Shown here one piece after another: positions 6,376-61,400 of a stretch of DNA of 64,000 nt. Origin of the DNA: Prauserella halophila (GTDB lineage: Bacteria; Actinomycetota; Actinomycetes; Mycobacteriales; Pseudonocardiaceae); the NCBI RefSeq assembly GCF_024171895.1, contig NZ_JAMTCQ010000012.1, positions 368,283-432,282 of the forward strand, given 5' to 3'. How positions within the stretch are numbered: position 1 is the first letter of the stretch; the number at the start of each line of letters is the position of its first letter. The notes beneath the pieces were generated by a model. That model saw only the letters and a list, made by a program, of their open reading frames with translations. It searched no databases and was not told the origin of the DNA. A program made the translations under genes and the position numbers.

Positions 6376-6495
6376 CGTCAGTGCGTCGCGTGCCACCACG
6401 GGCGCATGCACGGGCGTGCAGATCGCTGTGATCTGCACCGCCGGGAGCGTGGCAGGGGCGTAGTCCGCGTCACGGCCACCGGCGGACCGGCAGTA

Positions 6496-6584
6496 CCCAC
6501 AACGCCGACACACCCAACAACGCCGAAACACCCAACAGCGCCGACACACCCAACAGCGTCGACAAACCCAACTACGTCCGAACG
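6496..6584. repeat. 18-bp tandem repeats in the nuoA leader
   Basis: About five units of the form CCCAACARCGCCGACACA occur in a row between the Rex sites and the nuoA start. The unit is six codons long and the frame leading into nuoA is open through it (a TPTHPT-type repeat), but no ribosome-binding site supports a start upstream of it. Confidence 0.8.
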
Positions 6585-7686: not shown

Positions 7687-8445
7687 ATGGCTGACGAGGA
7701 CACGCAGAACCCACGGACCGGCGGGGAGAACTCGAGCGCCGAACGCCCCGAGTCCGGTCTCGAGCCGCACGGCTCCGAGCCCGCCCGGGTGGTTGCCGGT
7801 CACGAGCGCAGGGGCATGTTCGGCGTCTCCGGCAGCGGTGACACGTCGGGCTACGGCGGACTGCGCCTGCCCGCGTACTCGCCGCCGCCCGCGGAACGTC
7901 CCTACGGCGGCTGGTTCGACGACTTCGCCGACGAGTTCTACGCCGCGCTCGCCGAGAACGGTATTCCGGTGGAGGCGATCCTGCAGGTGACCGTCGACCG
8001 TGGCGAGATCACCTTCTACGTCGACCGGGAGCACCTCGTCGCGATCTGCCGGGTGCTGCGCGACGACGAGGGGCTGCGCTTCGAGATGTGCAGTTCGCTG
8101 TCCGGTGTGGACTACGGCGAGGACGTGCCGCAACGGCTGCACTCGGTGTATCACCTGCTGTCGATGACCTACCGGCGCCGCATTCGCCTCGAGGTCACGA
8201 TGGACATCGAGGACCCCCACGTGCCGTCCGTCGTGGACGTCTACCCGACGGCGGACTGGCACGAGCGCGAGGCCTACGACATGTTCGGCATCGTCTACGA
8301 CGGCCACCCCGCGCTGACCCGCATCCTCATGCCCGACGACTGGGAAGGGCATCCGCAGCGCAAGGACTACCCGCTCGGTGGGATTCCCGTGGAGTACAAG
8401 GGCGCGGAGATCCCGCCGCCGGACACGCGGAGGTCGTACTCGTGA
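7687..8445 (+). CDS. nuoC: NADH-quinone oxidoreductase subunit C
   Basis: The 30-kDa-type subunit of the peripheral arm, 252 residues, separate from NuoD. The signature is seen as [20 protein letters not shown] followed by [20 protein letters not shown]. An N-terminal extension of about 70 residues, acidic then Gly-rich, is longer than in most bacteria. The start ATG lies nine bases after the nuoB stop. Its TGA overlaps a GTG (GTGA) that opens the repeat-made small frame at 8442-8600. Confidence 0.94.
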
Positions 8446-8600
8446 GCTTTCCGCCGAAGTACGTGTTCCCGCTGGAGGCGCGGAGGACACCGCCGAAGTA
8501 TGTGTTCCCGCTGGAGGCGCGGAGGACACCGCCGAAGTACGTGTTCCCGCTGGAGGCGCGGAAAACACCGCCCGTTTCTTGCCCGCTGGAGGCGCCATGA
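8442..8600 (+). CDS. 52-codon repeat mini-cistron coupled between nuoC and nuoD
   Basis: The GTG at 8442 overlaps the nuoC stop (GTGA) and the TGA at 8598-8600 overlaps the nuoD ATG (ATGA), so ribosomes could pass from nuoC through this frame into nuoD. It is made of three 13-residue units, [13 protein letters not shown], plus a partial fourth. The DNA unit is 39 bp and each contains CTGGAGGCG, a Shine-Dalgarno-like core; the last copy lies 7 nt before the nuoD ATG and is its likely ribosome-binding site. Another frame is also open through the repeats and in phase with nuoD, so an N-terminal extension of NuoD is the alternative. Related repeats with the same overlaps occur at korA/korB and in the metal ABC operon. 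Function unknown. Confidence 0.55.
8451..8596. repeat. 39-bp tandem repeats between nuoC and nuoD
   Basis: Units begin at 8451, 8490 and 8529, with a partial one from 8568. The consensus starts CCGCCGAAGTACGTG and ends TGGAGGCGCGGAGGACA. The sequence is alignable, with small indels, to the 39-bp repeats at 27810-27926 and 35757-35945 read on their sense strand. Confidence 0.9.
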
Positions 8601-9970: not shown

Positions 9971-10731
9971 GCAGCGGTACCCCGAACGACGACACCCCGA
10001 GCACGGCGACCCGGTTCGGCGAGGACACGGTCGCCGACGCGCGCGAGCTGATCGGCCGGTACCCGCAGTCGCGGTCCGCACTGTTGCCGCTGCTGCACCT
10101 GGTGCAGTCCGTCGAGGGACACGTCAGCCAGGAGGGCATGGCGTTCTGCGCCGAGCAGCTCGGACTGTCGGAAGCCGAGGTCGCGGCCGTCGCGACGTTC
10201 TACACGATGTACAAGCGCAAGCCGTGCGGTGAGCATCTGGTGAGCGTGTGCACGAACACGCTGTGCGCGGCGATGGGCGGCGACGCGATCTACAAGCGGC
10301 TGCAGCAGCACCTCGGTTCCGACGGTGCGCCGCTCGGCCACGAGGAGGTCGCGGGTACGCCCGGCGAGAGTGGTTCGCTCATGCTCGAGCACGCCGAATG
10401 TCTCGCCGCGTGCGACCTGGCCCCGGTGTTGCAGGTCAACTACGAGTACTTCGACAACCAGACCGAGGCGGGCGCGGTCGAACTCGTCGACGCGTTGCGG
10501 CGCGGCGACAAGCCGCATCCGACCCGCGGGGCTCCGCTGTCGGATTTCAAGACCGTGGAGCGGCAGCTGGCAGGCCTGCTGCCGGAGGACGACGACGAGT
10601 TCTGGACCGATGTGGACGGACCGTCGCAGGCCGTCGAGACGATGCGTGGCGCCCAGCTGGCCGCGGACCGCAGCTGGACGGCACCCGCGGCGCCCGAGGA
10701 CGTGCCGCTGCCGGAGGTGGAGGCGAAATGA
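9967..10731 (+). CDS. nuoE: NADH-quinone oxidoreductase subunit E
   Basis: A 254-residue thioredoxin-fold subunit that binds the N1a 2Fe-2S cluster in the NADH-dehydrogenase module. The four Cys ligands are in [18 protein letters not shown] (one of these three Cys is not a ligand) and [11 protein letters not shown]. The C-terminal half (about residues 165-254) is an extension rich in Asp and Pro, longer than the E. coli protein. The ATG overlaps the nuoD stop, and its own TGA overlaps the ATG of a 26-codon frame. Confidence 0.93.
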
Positions 10732-10804
10732 ACGACCATCGCGCATGTCCCGTTCATGGAGCCGACCGGGTGCGGGTGTCCCGCAGGACACGGGTGGAGG
10801 CGAA

Positions 10805-10808
<4 letters not shown>
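10728..10808 (+). CDS. 26-codon mini-cistron coupled between nuoE and nuoF
   Basis: ATG 10728 overlaps the nuoE stop (ATGA) and TGA 10806-10808 overlaps the nuoF ATG (ATGA). Both junctions carry the same 16 bases, GGTGGAGGCGAAATGA (10716-10731 and 10793-10808), so each start has its own ribosome-binding site. The peptide would begin [15 protein letters not shown] and end in a basic stretch; the korA/korB mini-cistron begins similarly (MTDH). It may have arisen by duplication of the junction. Whether a peptide accumulates or the frame only keeps ribosomes coupled cannot be told. Confidence 0.45.
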
Positions 10809-26745: not shown

Positions 26746-27806
<1,061 letters not shown>

Positions 27807-27810
<4 letters not shown>

Positions 27811-27941
27811 GCTGCCGCCTCCGCGGGAACGAGTGCGTCGTCGGTGCCGGTTGCCGCCGCCGCGGGAACGAGTGCGTCGGCGGTGTTGATGGCCGCCTCC
27901 GCGGTGAAGAGTGCGTCGGCGGTGCTTCCGTGGTCGGTCAT
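27807..27941 (-). CDS. 44-codon repeat mini-cistron coupled between korA and korB
   Basis: ATG 27941 overlaps the korA stop (ATGA) and TGA 27807-27809 overlaps the korB ATG (ATGA). After MTDHGS come three 13-residue units of the type TADALVPAEAATG. The DNA period is 39 bp; units contain GCGGAGGCG (GCGGCGGCG in the middle one), and the last supplies the korB ribosome-binding site. The unit matches the one in the metal ABC operon ([13 protein letters not shown]) closely and the nuoC/nuoD one more distantly. The peptide is Ala-rich with no recognisable domain. A function as peptide or as coupling device is undetermined. Confidence 0.55.
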
Positions 27942-29854
27942 GCCGTGCCGACCTCCCGGATGGTGTCGGTGAACACGCCTTCGAGCTCTTCGGCCTTGAA
28001 GGGCAGTCCGGCGACCTTGTTGTAGGACTGGATGTCGGTGAGGTACTTGGCGCGCAGCAACAGCGACAGCTGGCCGAGGTTCATCTCGGGCACGATCACG
28101 TGGTCGTAGGCGTCGAGTACCTCGCCGAGGTTGGCAGGCAGCGGGTTGAGGTGACGCAAATGCGCCTGGGCGATCGGCATGCCCTTGGCCCGCACCCGGC
28201 GTGCCGCGGCACCGATCGGGCCGTACGTCGAGCCCCAGCCGAGCACCAGCACCCGCGCGTTGCCGTTGGGGTCGTCGACCTCGACGTCGGGCACGTCGAC
28301 GCCGTCGACCTTGGCTTGGCGCAGCCGCACCATCTTGTCGTGGTTGTCGGGGTCGTAGGAGATGTTGCCCTTGCCCTCGGCCTTCTCCAGGCCACCGATG
28401 CGGTGCTGCAGCCCCGCCGTGCCGGGCAGCGCCCATTCGCGGGCGAGGGTTTCCGGGTCCCGCTGGTAGGGCCAGTGCTCACCGGACTCGTCCGGGGCGT
28501 TGGGCTCGGTGGCGAACTCGACCGACAGGTCGGGCAGTGTGCTCGCGTCGGGGATCAGCCACGGCTCGGAGCCGTTGGCGACCGCCCCGTCCGAGAGCAG
28601 CAGCACCGGCGTGCGGTACTTCAGTGCGATCCGCGTGGCCTCGATCGCGATGTCGAAACAGTCGGCGGGCGTGGCCGGCGCGACGATCGGCACGGGGGAT
28701 TCACCGTTGCGGCCGAAGTAGGCCTGCAGCAGGTCGGCCTGCTCGGTCTTGGTCGGCAGACCGGTCGACGGGCCGCCGCGCTGCACGTCGATCACCACCA
28801 GCGGCAGCTCGGTCATCACTCCCAGCCCGACCGTCTCGGCCTTCAGCGCGATACCCGGGCCGGACGTCGACGTGACGCCCAGTGCACCGCCGTAGGCGGC
28901 GCCGAGTGCCGCGCCGATGCCCGCGATCTCGTCCTCGGCCTGGAACGACGTGATCCCGAAGTTCTTGTGCTTCGACAGCTCGTGCAGCACGTCCGAGGCG
29001 GGTGTGATCGGGTAGGTGCCCAGCAGCACCGGCAGCTTCGCCTGCTGACCGGACGCGACGATGCCGTAGGCCAGGGCCGTGTTGCCCGTGATCTGGCGGT
29101 ACGTGCCGGGCGGGAGCTTCGCGGGGGCGATCTCGAACGTCGTGCCGAACGCCTCGGTCGTCTCGCCGTAGTACCAGCCCGCGCGGAAGGCCAGCACGTT
29201 CGCCTCGGCGACGTCGGGCTTCTTGGCGAACTTCTCGCGCAGGTACGCCTCGGTGCCCTCGGTCGGCCGGTGATACATCCACGACAGCAGCCCCAGGGCA
29301 AACATGTTCTTGCAGCGCTCGGCGTCCTTCTTGCCGAGGCCGGTGTCGGCCAGCGCCCCCTGCGTCAGGGTCGACATGGCGACCTCGTGGACCTCGAACG
29401 CCGACAGCGAGTCGTCCTCGAGCGGGTTCGACTCGTAGTCGACCTTGGCCAGGTTGCGCTTGCCGAACTCGTCGGTGTTGACGATCACCGTGCCGCCCTG
29501 GGGCACGTCGTCGATGTTCGCCTTCAGCGCCGCCGGGTTCATCGCGACGAGCACGTCCGGGCGGTCACCGGGGGTGAGGATGTCGTAGTCGGCGAAATGC
29601 ACCTGGAAGCTCGAGACCCCGGGAATCGTGCCCTGCGGTGCGCGGATCTCCGCCGGGAAGTTCGGCAACGTCGCGAGGTCGTTGCCGAAGGCGGCGGCTT
29701 CCGACGTGAACCGGTCACCGGTCAGCTGCATACCGTCGCCGGAGTCGCCGGCGAACCGGATCACGACGCGCTCGAGCCGGTTGACCTCTGTCGGTCGGGA
29801 CGCCGACAGCGCCTCGATGCCGGCCGTTGCGCTGCCGTTCGCACTCGTGCTCAT
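27938..29854 (-). CDS. korA: 2-oxoglutarate:ferredoxin oxidoreductase subunit alpha
   Basis: A 638-residue fused gamma/alpha subunit. The N-terminal gamma domain starts at VVIRFAGDSGDGMQLTGDRF (about residues 29-48). The alpha domain follows with LLGTYPITPASDVLHELSK, SFQAEDEIAGIGAALGAAYG and TSTSGPGIALKAETVGLG, typical of actinobacterial KorA. ATG 29854 is the first in-frame start before the homologous part; GAGAGGGA lies about 12 bases upstream. Downstream it is joined to korB through the coupled mini-cistron. No ferredoxin gene is nearby. Confidence 0.94.
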   Translation of the reverse strand: MSTSANGSATAGIEALSASRPTEVNRLERVVIRFAGDSGDGMQLTGDRFTSEAAAFGNDLATLPNFPAEIRAPQGTIPGVSSFQVHFADYDILTPGDRPDVLVAMNPAALKANIDDVPQGGTVIVNTDEFGKRNLAKVDYESNPLEDDSLSAFEVHEVAMSTLTQGALADTGLGKKDAERCKNMFALGLLSWMYHRPTEGTEAYLREKFAKKPDVAEANVLAFRAGWYYGETTEAFGTTFEIAPAKLPPGTYRQITGNTALAYGIVASGQQAKLPVLLGTYPITPASDVLHELSKHKNFGITSFQAEDEIAGIGAALGAAYGGALGVTSTSGPGIALKAETVGLGVMTELPLVVIDVQRGGPSTGLPTKTEQADLLQAYFGRNGESPVPIVAPATPADCFDIAIEATRIALKYRTPVLLLSDGAVANGSEPWLIPDASTLPDLSVEFATEPNAPDESGEHWPYQRDPETLAREWALPGTAGLQHRIGGLEKAEGKGNISYDPDNHDKMVRLRQAKVDGVDVPDVEVDDPNGNARVLVLGWGSTYGPIGAAARRVRAKGMPIAQAHLRHLNPLPANLGEVLDAYDHVIVPEMNLGQLSLLLRAKYLTDIQSYNKVAGLPFKAEELEGVFTDTIREVGTA

Positions 29855-30032
29855 GGGCCAGGAAATCCCTCTCTGACGATTGGCGCGCCCAGCGCGCAAT
29901 ACTTCGAGATTACTTGTTGTTTTCAGGGCGAGCGGACCTGTGTGATCTGCCTTACCTATGACGCGGGAGTAACAGTCCCCTGATTCCATCAACTGAGACG
30001 ACGGCGAGCTCATCGAGCCCGTGCCCGGACGG

Positions 30033-30552: not shown

Positions 30553-31614
30553 ATGACAGGCGATCTCGCGCTGCCCGTACGTGTCCCGACTCCCCGCCAC
30601 TACCTGATGTGCCCGCCGCGGCACTTCGCCGTGGAGTACTCGATCAACCCGTGGATGGACCCGGATCGGCCCGTCGACGTCGAGCTGGCCATGCGGCAGT
30701 GGACGACGCTGCGCGACACCTACCGCGAGCTGGGCCACACGGTCGACGAGGTGCCGCCGCAGCCGGGGCTTCCCGACATGGTGTTCGCCGCCAACTCGGG
30801 GACCGTCGTCGACGGGCGCGTGCTCGGGTCGCGGTTCCGCGCACCGGAGCGCGCCGCCGAGGCCGAACACTTCCGGCGCTGGTTCGTCGAGAACGGCTTC
30901 CGCGACGTCACCATGCCGCGGCAGATCAACGAGGCCGAGGGCGATTTCGTCTGGACCGGCGGGCTGCTGCTCGCGGGTACCGGCTTTCGCACCGACCCCG
31001 GCGCCCATGCCGAGGCGCAGGAGGCGCTCGGCGTGCCGATCGTGTCGCTGCAGCTGATCGACGAGCGCTACTACCACCTGGACACGGCGCTGTTCGTGCT
31101 GTCGGGCGAGTCCGACGGTGCAGGATCGGCCGCCGGCCACGACGCGGGTGCCGACGCGGGTGCCGACGCCGGTGTTGCAGGTTCCGGACGCCGTGTTGCA
31201 GGTTCCGGGGCCCGTGTTGCGGGTTCCGGACGCCGTGTTGCGGGTTCCGGGGCCCGTGTTGCGGATTCCAGGGAGCGTGTTGCGGGTTCCGGGGGAGACC
31301 GCGGTGCTGTCGCCGGGGTCGGCGACGGCGGGACTCGGGCGCAGATCGCCTACTACCCGGAGGCGTTCTCGGAGGGGTCACGGCGCGTGCTGCGGCGGCT
31401 GTTCCCACACGCGGTCGTCGCCACGAAGGCCGACGCGGAATGCTTCGGGCTCAACGGAATCTCGGACGGCCGCCACGTCGTCCTGCCCACGGAGGCGACC
31501 GGCCTGGCCGAGCAGCTCACGGCGCGGGGCTACGAGGTGCGGTTCGTCGACATCTCGGAGCTGCGCAAGGCAGGCGGCGGCCCGAAGTGCTGCACCCTGG
31601 AGATCCGCAAGTAG
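30553..31614 (+). CDS. ddaH: Dimethylargininase (DDAH-type guanidino hydrolase) with a repeat insert
   Basis: 353 residues against about 260-290 for the family. The penta-fold amidinotransferase core is intact: PDMVFAANSGTV with the substrate Asp, INEAEGDFVWTGG, catalytic His in YYHLDTALFVL (H175) and the nucleophilic Cys at the end in GGGPKCCTLEIRK (C346 or C347). It should hydrolyse methylarginine or arginine-like guanidines to citrulline and an amine. Residues about 206-249 are six or so units of VAGSGRR/VAGSGAR, coded by the 21-bp repeat family found between genes elsewhere in this window. The insert sits in the loop after the catalytic His strand and before IAYYPEAFSEG, where length variation should be tolerated. 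Confidence 0.82.
   Translation: MTGDLALPVRVPTPRHYLMCPPRHFAVEYSINPWMDPDRPVDVELAMRQWTTLRDTYRELGHTVDEVPPQPGLPDMVFAANSGTVVDGRVLGSRFRAPERAAEAEHFRRWFVENGFRDVTMPRQINEAEGDFVWTGGLLLAGTGFRTDPGAHAEAQEALGVPIVSLQLIDERYYHLDTALFVLSGESDGAGSAAGHDAGADAGADAGVAGSGRRVAGSGARVAGSGRRVAGSGARVADSRERVAGSGGDRGAVAGVGDGGTRAQIAYYPEAFSEGSRRVLRRLFPHAVVATKADAECFGLNGISDGRHVVLPTEATGLAEQLTARGYEVRFVDISELRKAGGGPKCCTLEIRK
31172..31300. repeat. 21-bp repeats expanded in frame inside ddaH
   Basis: About six units of the type GTGTTGCGGGTTCCGGRCGCC lie head to tail in the coding strand. The unit is seven codons, so copy-number change keeps the frame. The same unit forms intergenic arrays at 33010, 38056, 38275, 40255, 60403 and 61338. 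Confidence 0.9.
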
Positions 31615-33009: not shown

Positions 33010-33175
33010 GTCAACACGGCCTCCGGAACCCGCAACACGGCCTCCGGAATCCGCAACACGGGCCCCGGAATCCGCAACACGGGCCCCGGAATCCGCAACA
33101 CGGCCTCCGGAACCCGCAACACGGGCCCCGGAATCCGCAACACGCGTGCACGGGTGCAGGACACGCGCGAAGGGG
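33010..33175. repeat. 21-bp repeat array downstream of the metal ABC permease gene
   Basis: About seven units, on the minus strand GTGTTGCGGATTCCGGGGCC and close variants, followed nearest the permease stop by two GTGTCCTGCAC-type units. In the sense of the minus-strand permease gene the array is immediately 3' of it. It also lies directly upstream of the VOC gene start. Confidence 0.9.
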
Positions 33176-34043: not shown

Positions 34044-35029
34044 CGGGCGGCCCCCTCCCGCAGCCTGCCCGCACGGGCGCGCGCGATGACGCCGCGCCGG
34101 GGCGCCAGCACCACGGCCAGCACCGCGAGAGCCGTCGCGAGCAACACGATCACCGGACCGGCCGGCAGTTCCGCGCGCCCGGACACGAGCCCGCCGACCG
34201 CGCCGCACGCTGCCCCGACGACGGCCGACAGCGGTAGCAGTGCCGCAAGCCGGGTCGTGAGCTGGCGCGCGGTGACGACCGGTGCGACCAGCAACGCGAC
34301 CATCAGGATCGCGCCGACGGTGCGAACGCCGAGCACCACCGCGAGCGCCAGCAGTCCCGTGCTCGCGGCGTCGACGACCCACGTGCGCACGCCCGCGACG
34401 GCCGTGAATCCCGGATCGAACGTCGCCGACCGCAACAGCCGGAACCCCAGCAGGATCACCACGACGGCAACGCCCGCGCCGGCGAGCGCCACGACGATGT
34501 CGCGTTCGACCATCCCCGCGGTCTGGCCGAGCAGGTACTCGTCCAGACCGGACTGCTGCGCGTTGCCGCTGTCGGAAATGCCGGTCAGCAGCACGATGCC
34601 GAGCGTCAGCGACACCGACAGCACGACGCCGATCGCCGCGTCCGAGCGCAGCCGCCCGGTGCGTTCCAGCGCGATCATGGCGAACGCCGCGAGCGTCGCC
34701 GAGACCGCCGCTCCCAGCAACAACAGCTCCGGCACCTTGGCACCGGTGAGCAGGAACGCCACCGCGACGCCTGCCAGGGTGCCGTGGCTCATCGCGTCGC
34801 CGAACATGCTGCGCTGACGGAGCACGGCCAGCGGCCCGAGGAGTCCCGCGACGAAGCCCACCACCGCCGTGCCGACGACGACCACGGCGTCCGGATACGA
34901 CAGCGGCAGGGCGTCCAGCAGTCCGCCGAGCGGCCCGGCCTGCAGGGATCCCGGCTGGAGAGCGCCCGGTTGCAGGGAAGCCGGTTGCAGGGCGCCCGGT
35001 TGCAGGGAGCCGGCCACGACCGCACTCAC
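34040..35029 (-). CDS. Metal ABC transporter permease 1 with N-terminal LQPGA repeats
   Basis: A 329-residue ABC-3 family permease. GTG 35029 overlaps the ATPase stop (GTGA). Before the first helix (VVVVGTAVVGFVAGLLGPLA) the protein carries about five units of LQPGA/LQPAS, encoded by 15-bp repeats at about 34940-35020, not usual for the family. The conserved permease segment LAVLRQRSMFGDAMSHGTLAG is present. The repeats sit right after the coupling junction, again at a gene boundary of this operon. Confidence 0.87.
   Translation of the reverse strand: MSAVVAGSLQPGALQPASLQPGALQPGSLQAGPLGGLLDALPLSYPDAVVVVGTAVVGFVAGLLGPLAVLRQRSMFGDAMSHGTLAGVAVAFLLTGAKVPELLLLGAAVSATLAAFAMIALERTGRLRSDAAIGVVLSVSLTLGIVLLTGISDSGNAQQSGLDEYLLGQTAGMVERDIVVALAGAGVAVVVILLGFRLLRSATFDPGFTAVAGVRTWVVDAASTGLLALAVVLGVRTVGAILMVALLVAPVVTARQLTTRLAALLPLSAVVGAACGAVGGLVSGRAELPAGPVIVLLATALAVLAVVLAPRRGVIARARAGRLREGAAR
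34940..35020. repeat. 15-bp repeats at the N-terminus of permease 1
   Basis: On the minus strand CTGCAACCGGGCGCC and variants repeat about five times, coding LQPGA-type units in frame. The array is in the first 30 codons of the gene. Confidence 0.8.
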
Positions 35030-35754
35030 CGGGCGGCCAGCGGCGCCATGCCGTAAGCGCGTTCGAGACTGTCGGGGGTGAGCACATCCGCCGGAGTGCC
35101 CGCCGCGACCACGGTGCCCGCCATGAGCACCGCGTGGTCGAAGTGATCCAGCACGTCGCGCAGGTCGTGATGCACGGCGATGACGGACGCGCCGTCGCGG
35201 CACAACCCGGTGAGGATCTCCAGCAACGTCGCCTCGGTGCGCGCGTCGACGGCCGTGAACGGCTCGTCGAGCACGATGAGTTCCGCGCGCTGGGCGAGCG
35301 CTCGCGCGAGGAACACCCGCTGCCGCTGCCCACCGGAGAGCTCGTCGATCGGCCGGTCGGCCAGATCCGTGACGCCGACCTGCGCCATCACGTCCGCCAC
35401 CAGCTCGTCGTCGCCGGGAGTCAGCCTGCGCAACCAGCCCCGGTGCGGGTAGCGGCCCATCTCGACGACCTGCACGGCCGTGATCGGGAAGTCCTTCGCC
35501 ACGGCATCGGACTGCGGGACGTACGCCACGCGCTTACGGACGCGGCGCAGCGGCTGCCCCAGCCAGCGCACCGTGCCGCGCACCGACGGCACCAGCCCGA
35601 GCGCCGCCTTGACCATCGTCGACTTGCCCGCGCCGTTCGGCCCGACCACCGCGCTGAGCACACCCGCGGGGATCTCGACGTCGACGCCGGTCAGCACCGG
35701 ACGCCCGCCGTAGGAGGCGCTCATACCCTGCAGTCGAAGTGCTGGCTCGGTCAT
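35026..35754 (-). CDS. Metal ABC transporter ATPase
   Basis: A 242-residue ABC ATPase. Walker A is GPNGAGKST (about residues 38-46), the Q-loop is in VAYVPQSD, the signature is [15 protein letters not shown] and Walker B is [12 protein letters not shown]. The H-loop His is in VIAVHHDL. It drives import through the two permeases. The ATG overlaps the stop of the repeat mini-cistron (ATGA), with ACGGAGGCCGAGGT as ribosome-binding region. Confidence 0.93.
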
Positions 35755-35948
35755 ACCTCGGCCTCCGTGGAAACGAGTGCGTCGGCGGTGGCCTTTTCCG
35801 CCTCCGCGGGAGGAAGTACGTCGGCGGTGGCTGTTGCCGCCTCCGTGGGAGGAAGTGCGTCGGCGGTGGCTGTTGCCGCCTCCGCGGGAGGAAGTGCGTC
35901 GGCGGTGGCCTTTTCCGCCTCCGCGGGAGGAAGTGCGTCGGCGGTCAT
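35751..35948 (-). CDS. 65-codon repeat mini-cistron coupled between the metal-binding protein and ATPase genes
   Basis: ATG 35948 overlaps the binding-protein stop (ATGA) and TGA 35751-35753 overlaps the ATPase ATG (ATGA). The frame is five 13-residue units of the type [13 protein letters not shown]; the last ends in TEAEV. The DNA unit is 39 bp and each contains GCGGAGGCG or a close match, so the frame holds a row of potential ribosome-binding sites with the last one serving the ATPase gene. It is the clearest member of the family also seen at korA/korB and nuoC/nuoD. The peptide would be Ala- and Glu-rich. Function unknown. Confidence 0.6.
35757..35945. repeat. 39-bp tandem repeats in the metal ABC operon
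   Basis: Five units with a period of exactly 39 bp. On the minus strand each starts ACCGCCGACGCACTTCCTCC and continues GCGGAGGCGG; variation is mostly in the last six bases. They fill the entire space between the two flanking genes. Confidence 0.93.
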
Positions 35949-36961
35949 GTCAGTCCCTCCGCGAGCGTCGCCGCGTTGGCGCGCAGCATGCCCAGGTAGC
36001 TGCCGTCGGATCCGGTCGAATCGGAGTACAGCTCGCCGCCGACGCGCACGTCGCCGCCGCGGTTCCGGGCCGCGGCGACCATCGAGTCGACGGTCTGCCG
36101 GGACACGCTCGTCTCGAGGAACACGGCCGGCAGGTTTTCGCGGGCGAGCAGCTCGGCCACCCGTGCGACGTCGGCCGTCGTCGCCTCCTGCTGGGTGGAG
36201 ATGCCCTGGATGGCGACGACATCCATGCCGAACGCGTCGCCGAAGTAGCGGAAGGCGTCGTGCGAGGTGACGAGCGTGCGGCGGTCGGCGGGGATGCGAT
36301 CGATGGTGCGCTGGACCCGGTCGGCGGCGGCGCGCACCTCGTCGCGGTAGGTGTCCCCTCGGCGGCGGTAGTCGGCGGCGTTGTCCGGGTCGAGCTCGGC
36401 GAGCCGTCCGGTCACGGCGTCGACCGCGTGTGCCCACAGCGCGGGGTCGTGCCAGATGTGGGGGTCGTGCTCCTCCTCGGGGGCCGCGTCGGCGGGCGGG
36501 CTCAGCAGCTGATCCTCCGGCACGGCTTCGCCCGCCAGCAGCACCGGCTTCGTACGCGCGACCTCGTCGAGGGTGCGCTGCAGCGAACCCTCCAGGTAGA
36601 GCCCGACGGCGATCACCGCGTCGGCGCGGCGCATCTCGCGCAGATCACCCGCTTTGGCCTGGTAGAGGTGCGGGTCCACGCCGGGGTTCATGAGCCGCAC
36701 CGTCTCGACGTCGTCGCCGCCGATGCGGCGCACCGTGTCGTCGAGGAACGTCGTGGTGGTGACGATGCGGAGGGTGCCGCCGTCCGCGCGGACCGGCTGG
36801 AGGCCGTAGCCGACGGCGCCGGAGATCGCCAGGACGAACACCACACCGAGGGCCACGAGCGCACGGCGATCCCGCCGCCGAGCGCGCCTTCGCCGCTGTG
36901 CTCGCCGGTGATGCGCCTCGGCGCCGGACGCCGCGGTACGGCCGTCACCAGTGTCGTTCAT
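35945..36961 (-). CDS. Metal ABC transporter substrate-binding protein, Mn/Fe-type
   Basis: A 338-residue TroA/PsaA-family (cluster A-I) binding protein. Residues about 33-52 form an uncleaved-looking signal anchor after a long Arg-rich N-terminus; there is no lipobox Cys. The four metal ligands line up as His98 (GVDPHLYQ), His168 (HDPHIWHD), Glu283 (FLETSVS) and Asp314 (LYSDSTG). A Glu at the third position is the manganese/iron pattern, where zinc binders have His. A short His-containing acidic loop (PEEEHDPHIWH) is much smaller than in ZnuA. First gene of the operon. Confidence 0.87.
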   Translation of the reverse strand: MNDTGDGRTAASGAEAHHRRAQRRRRARRRDRRALVALGVVFVLAISGAVGYGLQPVRADGGTLRIVTTTTFLDDTVRRIGGDDVETVRLMNPGVDPHLYQAKAGDLREMRRADAVIAVGLYLEGSLQRTLDEVARTKPVLLAGEAVPEDQLLSPPADAAPEEEHDPHIWHDPALWAHAVDAVTGRLAELDPDNAADYRRRGDTYRDEVRAAADRVQRTIDRIPADRRTLVTSHDAFRYFGDAFGMDVVAIQGISTQQEATTADVARVAELLARENLPAVFLETSVSRQTVDSMVAAARNRGGDVRVGGELYSDSTGSDGSYLGMLRANAATLAEGLT

Positions 36962-38055: not shown

Positions 38056-38345
38056 ATGCGCGTGTTGCGCTTTCCGGGGCTCGTGTTGCGTTTTGCGGGG
38101 GCTGTGTTGTGCCTTCCGGGGACCGTGTTGCGCCATCGCGTGCGTGGCCCGCGTCCGGCGGCGCGTGTCCCGCGTTCAGTGCCACGTGTTCTGCAGTCCA
38201 GCAGCCCCGACCTTCAACGATGCTCCGACGTGCGACCGCCTGCCCGGACGTCACACGGTCGCGCGAACTGCAAGGCGGGCCCGCGAATCCGCAACACGGC
38301 CCCTGGAAAACGCAACACGGCCCCTGGAAAACGCAACACGGCTAC
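38056..38345. repeat. Two converging 21-bp repeat arrays between htpX and the TetR gene
   Basis: After the htpX stop, about four GTGTTGCGYTTTCCGGGGCY units read on the plus strand (38056-38145). Before the TetR stop, about three units read on the minus strand (38275-38345). Each array is thus 3' of its own gene and in its sense; the two could pair with each other. The 130 bp between them hold no gene. Confidence 0.88.
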
Positions 38346-40244: not shown

Positions 40245-40360
40245 TTGTGCTGCGAGGACGCAACACAGCTCCTGGAAAACGCAACACGGGCTCCGGAATC
40301 CGCAACACAGCCCCCGGAATCCGCAACACGGGCTCCGGGCTTCGCAACACGCGCCACGGG
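40245..40360. repeat. 21-bp repeat array downstream of rfbA
   Basis: About five units, on the minus strand GTGTTGCGGATTCCGGAGCC and variants, end two bases before the rfbA stop. They are 3' of rfbA and in its sense. Confidence 0.9.
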
Positions 40361-60379: not shown

Positions 60380-60402
60380 CACCGCCCTGCACGCGGAGCC
60401 GT

Positions 60403-60492
60403 GTTGCGTTCTCCGGGGCCCGTGTTGCGTTTTCCGGGGCCTGTGTTGCGGGTTCCGGAGATCGTGTTGCGGGTTCCGGAGCCGTGTTGCTC
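60403..60492. repeat. 21-bp repeat array downstream of fdhA
   Basis: About four to five GTGTTGCGTTYTCCGGGGCC and GTGTTGCGGGTTCCGGAG units on the plus strand, beginning 24 bases after the fdhA stop and in its sense. The remaining 120 bp to the next start hold no gene. Confidence 0.9.
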
Positions 60493-61337: not shown

Positions 61338-61400
61338 CGCAACACGGCCCCCGGAATCCGCAACACGGCCCCCGGAATCCGCAACACGGGCTTCGAGGTG
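61338..61400. repeat. 21-bp repeats downstream of the DUF309 gene
   Basis: Three units read GTGTTGCGGATTCCGGGGGC on the minus strand. They end a few bases before the DUF309 stop and lie in its sense. Confidence 0.88.

Follow-up and report, generated by a model that had tools for sequence, protein, structure and literature searches.

Why should a small reading frame built of repeats fill the junction between two genes of a zinc-uptake system? The question was raised by a 64,000-nucleotide stretch of the Prauserella halophila genome, called the window here (assembly GCF_024171895.1, contig NZ_JAMTCQ010000012.1). On its reverse strand, a 65-codon frame, hereafter the znu minicistron, lies between znuA and znuC. 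It is very probable that this frame consists of tandem copies of a dispersed element resembling the mycobacterial interspersed repetitive units (MIRUs), i.e., one that sits in the stop-start overlaps (DTGA) of operons, preserves their coupling, and is near-neutral or selfish rather than an instrument of adaptive tuning.

The repeat array, its layout and its distribution

The znu minicistron starts on an ATGA shared with the znuA stop (-), and its own terminal ATGA is the znuC start. Translation of window positions 35751-35948 (-) gave a product of 65 aa followed by a stop, and Tandem Repeats Finder returned a period of 39, 4.4 copies, 92% matches, and a score of 284. Coordinates, translation, and repeat search agree with the initial annotation, which had described a repeat-built frame filling the junction with ATGA at both ends. 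A GGAGG-like core had been noted there in nearly every unit; GGAGG is in fact carried by all five.

The unit is a dispersed imperfect hairpin repeat of approximately 34 nt, and the aligned units give GACCGCCGACGCACTCnTTCCCGCGGAGGCGGCA. Genomes were scanned with a model of the unit (R1), built from 22 rows, one of which held a typing error, and the number of candidates scored per genome was capped in each scan. At E ≤ 0.1, matches were found in all seven genomes of the genus, i.e., the window genome (G000, 5.05 Mb) and six relatives (G001-G006). At E ≤ 5e-4, the family yielded matches in 87 of 297 genomes and 20 of 46 genera, with 25 matches in the richest genome (G023). Order-wide, at E ≤ 0.001, 19 of 298 genomes were hit, belonging only to three families (f1, f12, and f14), and two of the 19 lie in families other than that of Prauserella. 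Among 11 loci from these two genomes, seven had an upstream frame of at least 190 codons ending exactly on DTGA. The occurrence of one and the same unit at unrelated junctions, i.e., znuA/znuC, korA/korB, and argC/argJ (in G005), and across the family favors the reading as a dispersed repeat.

The genomic context was studied in a sample of 85 loci from 44 genomes, drawn from the listed R1 matches of the genus and family and comprising 143 units in 89 arrays. Coding frames around the arrays were called by codon log-odds, and a long open reading frame (ORF) was one of 60 codons or more. The recurring, length-variable, relay-like architecture that had been claimed was borne out by this sample: in 60 of the 89 arrays, the upstream stop lies in a DTGA, followed by a chain of minicistrons, another DTGA, and a long ORF, and in 59 of these 60, GGAGG stands 4-7 nt (4, 5, or 7) ahead of the long-ORF start. 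Another five arrays begin on DTGA and then fuse to a long ORF, and one begins on DTGA and then breaks, so that 66 of the 89 begin on DTGA. The upstream stop lies outside DTGA in two arrays, four run within a gene frame, 11 have opposite-strand coding in the upstream flank (10 of them in both flanks), and the context of six is unclear.

The spacing of units follows the context. Of 54 gaps between neighboring units, 34 were of 38 bp, 16 of 39 bp, and four of other sizes. With 38-bp spacing, every unit is a short cistron in itself and terminates at the ATGA or GTGA that follows, as in chains of five (L211) and four (L187); with 39-bp spacing, the units form one longer frame, as at znu, or sit inside genes. 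In arrays that begin on DTGA and lead to a long ORF, 62 of the 77 minicistrons have 13 residues. Of the gaps that lie in or opposite coding frames, none was of 38 bp and 10 were of 39 bp, against 34 and six elsewhere (Fisher 7.8e-7; the four gaps of other sizes omitted). Counted by array, the figures were zero and five inside or opposite coding frames, and 20 and five elsewhere (p = 0.0018). The exclusive 39-bp spacing in or opposite coding frames is attributed to the frame constraint inside genes.

The unit folds as CCGCC-GA-CGC-[10 nt loop]-GCG-GA-GGCGG, with GGAGG within the 3' arm. In an alignment of 118 distinct units, 98.1% of the pair cells held standard pairs and four pairs had changed on both sides; none of 500 shuffles scored as high on any of five measures. 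Three of 500 shuffles attained the score of the 22 starting units. In folding, five of seven sequences, one of the five being a composite, showed the stem (z -1.32 to -2.58). The first minicistron was read in the common frame in 52 of the 60 full-layout arrays and in another frame in eight, i.e., the frames relative to the repeat were split 52, 6, and 2. Entropy was at most 0.07 bit at four of six third codon positions of the stem, in matches that, being found by a model, favor conserved columns. Since the frame is not fixed and these third positions hardly vary, it is DNA or RNA, rather than a peptide, that seems to be conserved.

Filled and empty states of the same junction were compared across the seven genus genomes. 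At znuA/znuC, repeats are present in six of seven; in G001-G005 the frame continues into ZnuC with no stop in between, and in G006 the site is empty, with znuC beginning directly on the znuA ATGA. A separate frame thus occurs in the window genome only. The fused arrays join ZnuC through differing tails, as if fusion occurred more than once. At korA/korB, separate minicistrons of one to four units with both overlaps were found in six of seven genomes, and the site is empty in G005. The argC/argJ junction shows the reverse: an R1-type array is present in G005 only, and the other six genomes have an empty ATGA/GTGA junction. At nuoC/nuoD, inserts occur in G000-G005 and none in G006; both overlaps are retained in G000, G001, G003, and G005. 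Within NuoG, the repeat lies reversed and in frame, and adds 0 (G000, G005, G006), 13 (G001, G004), 20 (G002), or 26 (G003) residues. Copy number at kor and znu differs between species, the comparison being one of species and not of strains of one species. A protein tree of the seven genomes paired G004 with G006, G001 with G003, and G002 with G005; from this small tree, neither the fused nor the separate znu state could be identified as the older.

The geometry, distribution, and variation of the arrays are seen in the sequences themselves; translation of the minicistrons, hand-over of ribosomes, and mobility of the element are inferred, and may be pictured as follows. A ribosome finishing znuA would re-start on the overlapping ATG and read the minicistron, opening the hairpin, and would then stop where the last GGAGG positions it to start znuC. 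An element settling in a stop-start overlap would rebuild the overlap on both sides and supply GGAGG. Such an insert would keep the coupling and would therefore be tolerated, as would in-frame fusions or losses.

Weighing the explanations

Several points speak against a coupling-preserving dispersed element. The 89 sampled arrays were the best-scoring listed matches, not random ones, and several loci are orthologous (e.g., L229, L235, L239, L241, and L246), so the counts are of loci and not of independent events. Among the eight other-frame arrays, the offset of L198 is an artefact caused by the unit before it, L197 spans a stretch of N, and four are orthologous or almost so. The 118-unit alignment was fitted to the model and hence leans towards structure; with the 22 starting units, 234 of 500 shuffles did as well on two of the five measures, one of them the number of pairs with changes in both partners, and two of the seven folded units were no better than shuffles (z 0.60 and -0.05). 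The stop-start overlaps are missing at znu in five genomes and at nuoC/nuoD in G002 and G004, and a single-base change may secondarily have given rise to the separate znu cistron. Finally, the R1 unit is limited in the window genome to two nearby junctions. With 150 of 10915 candidates scored, R1 matched eight units there at E ≤ 0.1, at znu and kor only; the nuoC/nuoD units and the nuoE/nuoF insert were not among the matches, and a genome-wide spread of the 39-bp family was not seen. An early loose pattern had given 23 matches against three for a reversed control. Eight of these, with at most one mismatch, were the znu and kor units, and the remaining matches were taken as chance.

The strongest competitor is a selected translational relay, in which copy number tunes the ratio of neighboring subunits, as the initial annotation had proposed; we consider it unlikely. 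In its favor are chains in which as many as five minicistrons, with GGAGG at good spacing, are linked by ATGA/GTGA, the differing copy numbers at kor and znu, and the confinement of 38-bp spacing in the sample to arrays neither inside nor opposite a coding frame. However, in near relatives that share these genes the site is empty (korA/korB in one of seven, znuA/znuC in one of seven, argC/argJ in six of seven), the array fused, or an overlap lost, so that tuning of stoichiometry is not indicated. Relatives that lose frame or overlap without consequence had been named beforehand as a finding that would speak against a relay; the losses themselves, one part of this, were seen in five of the six filled znu sites and at nuoC/nuoD in G002 and G004. 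A further point against the relay is that the same element lies within coding sequence, reversed in NuoG, and opposite genes. Dedicated tuning is possible, and the data are explained without it.

Still less likely is an N-terminal repeat extension that a one-base indel, or an error of sequencing, has separated from ZnuC in the window genome, the distal ATGA being coincidental. The frame is continuous into ZnuC in five of the six array-bearing genus genomes, as this explanation expects. Against it, the same unit forms separate DTGA-bounded cistrons at korA/korB in six of seven genomes, the full layout recurs in 60 of the 89 sampled arrays, and the fused forms differ in their joining tails.

A structured RNA regulator, whose hairpin hides GGAGG and gates downstream translation on a signal, is improbable to a slightly greater degree. 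The paired changes back the hairpin, and GGAGG lies in its 3' arm, but zinc uptake, ferredoxin oxidoreductase, and arginine synthesis offer no obvious common signal, and the element also occurs inside genes. In Rfam, the region 35600-36100 of the window gave no family at the cut-off; one sub-threshold ar14 match (27.7 vs 58.8 bits) was taken as chance.

That the repeat encodes a functional small protein, i.e., the TADALxPAEA peptide, is scarcely credible: the continuous 65-codon frame and the common frame of 52 of the 60 junction arrays would fit it, but other copies are read in other frames (L235, L213, nuoC/nuoD) or reversed (NuoG), on which grounds a peptide function was rejected, most stem third positions hardly vary, and the znu peptide had no Pfam match at E ≤ 0.001.

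Other junctions of the window and a second repeat family

The features of the window are collected in Table 1. The further frames named by the initial annotation, at korA/korB, nuoC/nuoD, and nuoE/nuoF, are all present, with ATGA or GTGA at both ends of each. The view of the four junctions as one recurring device holds in part: the znu and kor units are identical in type and the nuoC/nuoD units are related to them, whereas nuoE/nuoF carries a different repeat family. The nuoC/nuoD minicistron consists of three near-identical units and, by eye, a degenerate fourth; its GGAGGCG core has one extra base, and its units are read in a different frame from those of znu and kor.

Table 1. Repeat minicistrons of the window, their units, and the flanking genes
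Feature	Position in window	Strand	Basis
Minicistron, 65 codons, five 39-bp units, ATGA overlaps with znuA stop and znuC start	35751..35948	-	Sequence reading
Repeat units in znu minicistron	35757-35790, 35796-35829, 35835-35868, 35874-35907, 35913-35946	-	R1 matches
znuA, zinc-uptake substrate-binding protein, upstream gene	35945..36961	-	Pfam PF01297, E=3.3e-72
znuC, ABC transporter ATPase, downstream gene	35026..35754	-	Pfam PF00005, E=1e-28
Minicistron, 44 codons, three units of znu-type repeat, at korA/korB junction, ATGA at both ends	27807..27941	-	Sequence reading
Repeat units in kor minicistron	27813-27846, 27852-27885, 27891-27924	-	R1 matches
korA, 2-oxoacid:ferredoxin oxidoreductase alpha, upstream gene of kor junction	27938..30013	-	Pfam POR_N/POR
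korB, beta subunit, downstream gene of kor junction	26746..27810	-	Pfam TPP_enzyme_C
Minicistron, 52 codons, between nuoC and nuoD, GTGA/ATGA overlaps	8442..8600	+	Units related to znu/kor units by alignment
Minicistron, 26 codons, between nuoE and nuoF, ATGA at both ends	10728..10808	+	Member of second dispersed repeat family

At the nuoC/nuoD junction of another genome (L094, G020), a 6-codon minicistron (ATGAAGGAGTCTTGCTCATGA) was observed without a repeat unit. It looks as though the GGAG-start region had simply been duplicated in place, and is a possible seed state. At the znuC/znuB junction (window 34928-35040, -), a frame apparently starts on GTGA across the znuC stop. By eye, it contains a different tandem repeat of 15/30 bp (SLQPGALQPA...) and appears to be an N-terminal extension of ZnuB. 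Further tandem repeats of 21 bp (CGCAACACGGCCCCCGGAATC and variants) lie at window 31156-31294, 33012-33144, 38061-38342, 40259-40351, 60394-60490, and 61338-61389, and short ones of 16 and 18 bp at 2167-2265 and 6495-6581.

The nuoE/nuoF insert has its own core, CGACCGGGTGCGGGTGTCCCGCA, and spans approximately 74-89 bp between its two DTGA sites; the layout of its minicistron is that of the 38/39-bp family. Its minicistron has both overlaps in G000, G002, G005, and G006, and the site is empty in G003 and G004; G001 has one minicistron and, after it, a further unit that is joined in frame to nuoF. Searched in the genus, the insert gave 45 matches in seven of seven genomes. A model of this second family (R2) had matches in 25 of the 298 order genomes, with eight matches in the window genome. 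In the core copies read, DTGA was found 24-60 nt before the core in 24 of 28, and open frames of at least 90 codons flanked the minicistron on both sides in 14 of 28. Several copies repeat the Shine-Dalgarno sequence plus DTGA at both ends, and tandem copies 77 bp apart occur in one genome (G003:C2:36320-36547). One copy (L300) was seen ahead of a gene that by eye resembles ureC. The flanks are alike at several sites, among them L308, L290, and korA/korB, which would be candidates for target-site duplication.

A wider proposal is made only tentatively. Throughout the order, minicistron elements that preserve coupling might make up a general class of mobile DNA of minimal size. In Prauserella and its relatives, at least two unrelated families, i.e., the 38/39-bp hairpin and the repeat of approximately 74-89 bp, would have converged on stop-start overlaps, each rebuilding the overlap on both of its sides; their tandem chains might act as copy-number-variable ribosome relays modulating the downstream gene.

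Likeness to known elements and meaning

MIRUs are known only from positions between genes. The term DTGA reportedly comes from the primary MIRU paper, by Supply et al. in 1997. According to an excerpt of a 2025 review, MIRUs of mycobacteria are apparently mobile, insert at start codons, and hold an internal ORF coupled at -4 nt, and their insertion likely has minimal impact on expression (PMC12548453). The 77-bp repeats between senX3 and regX3 vary in number, as stated in an excerpt of another paper (PMC9392950). The initial annotation knew of no description of such a device; the MIRU, as outlined in that excerpt of the review, is a precedent (PMC12548453). For these repeats in this group, no description was found among the papers listed from literature lying mostly outside subscription journals and judged on titles and abstract openings.

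The likeness to MIRUs that is drawn here is one of layout. In both cases, a repeat is dispersed over many loci, here with up to 25 matches per genome and in 87 of 297 family genomes, although the 39-bp family occupies only two loci in the window genome. A small ORF overlaps the flanking genes at DTGA sites in the same direction, which is the full layout of 60 of the 89 arrays. Tandem copy number, variable in MIRUs, was seen here to differ between species at the same junction. There are also differences. The present repeats belong to Prauserella and its relatives, the main unit is of 38/39 bp and not 77 bp, and it forms a hairpin with tandem GA/GA and chains of separate minicistrons. Unlike the MIRU, it is also found in frame inside genes, where it is reversed in NuoG; four of the 89 arrays run through a gene frame and 11 have an opposite-strand upstream flank.

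Rickettsia palindromic elements are likewise palindromic repeats that insert in frame within coding sequences, but they are longer and are not known to be tied to stop-start overlaps. Coupling by -4 nt overlaps and short upstream ORFs has the same overlap geometry and ribosome hand-over logic, as far as the excerpt of the review describes it (PMC12548453); the difference is that the coupling ORF here is a dispersed repeat, not a gene-specific leader.

Frames of this kind mimic small proteins or N-terminal extensions, of which gene callers should be wary. A natural series of zero to five units at one kind of junction would allow a direct test of the range of ribosome hand-over from cistron to cistron, and of the way in which such small repeats spread when no enzyme for it is known. 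If the explanation as a coupling-preserving dispersed element is true, a mycobacterial curiosity, the MIRU, would extend to other genera and families of the order, in the form of a shorter unit with a clear hairpin and chains of coupled cistrons mostly 13 codons long.
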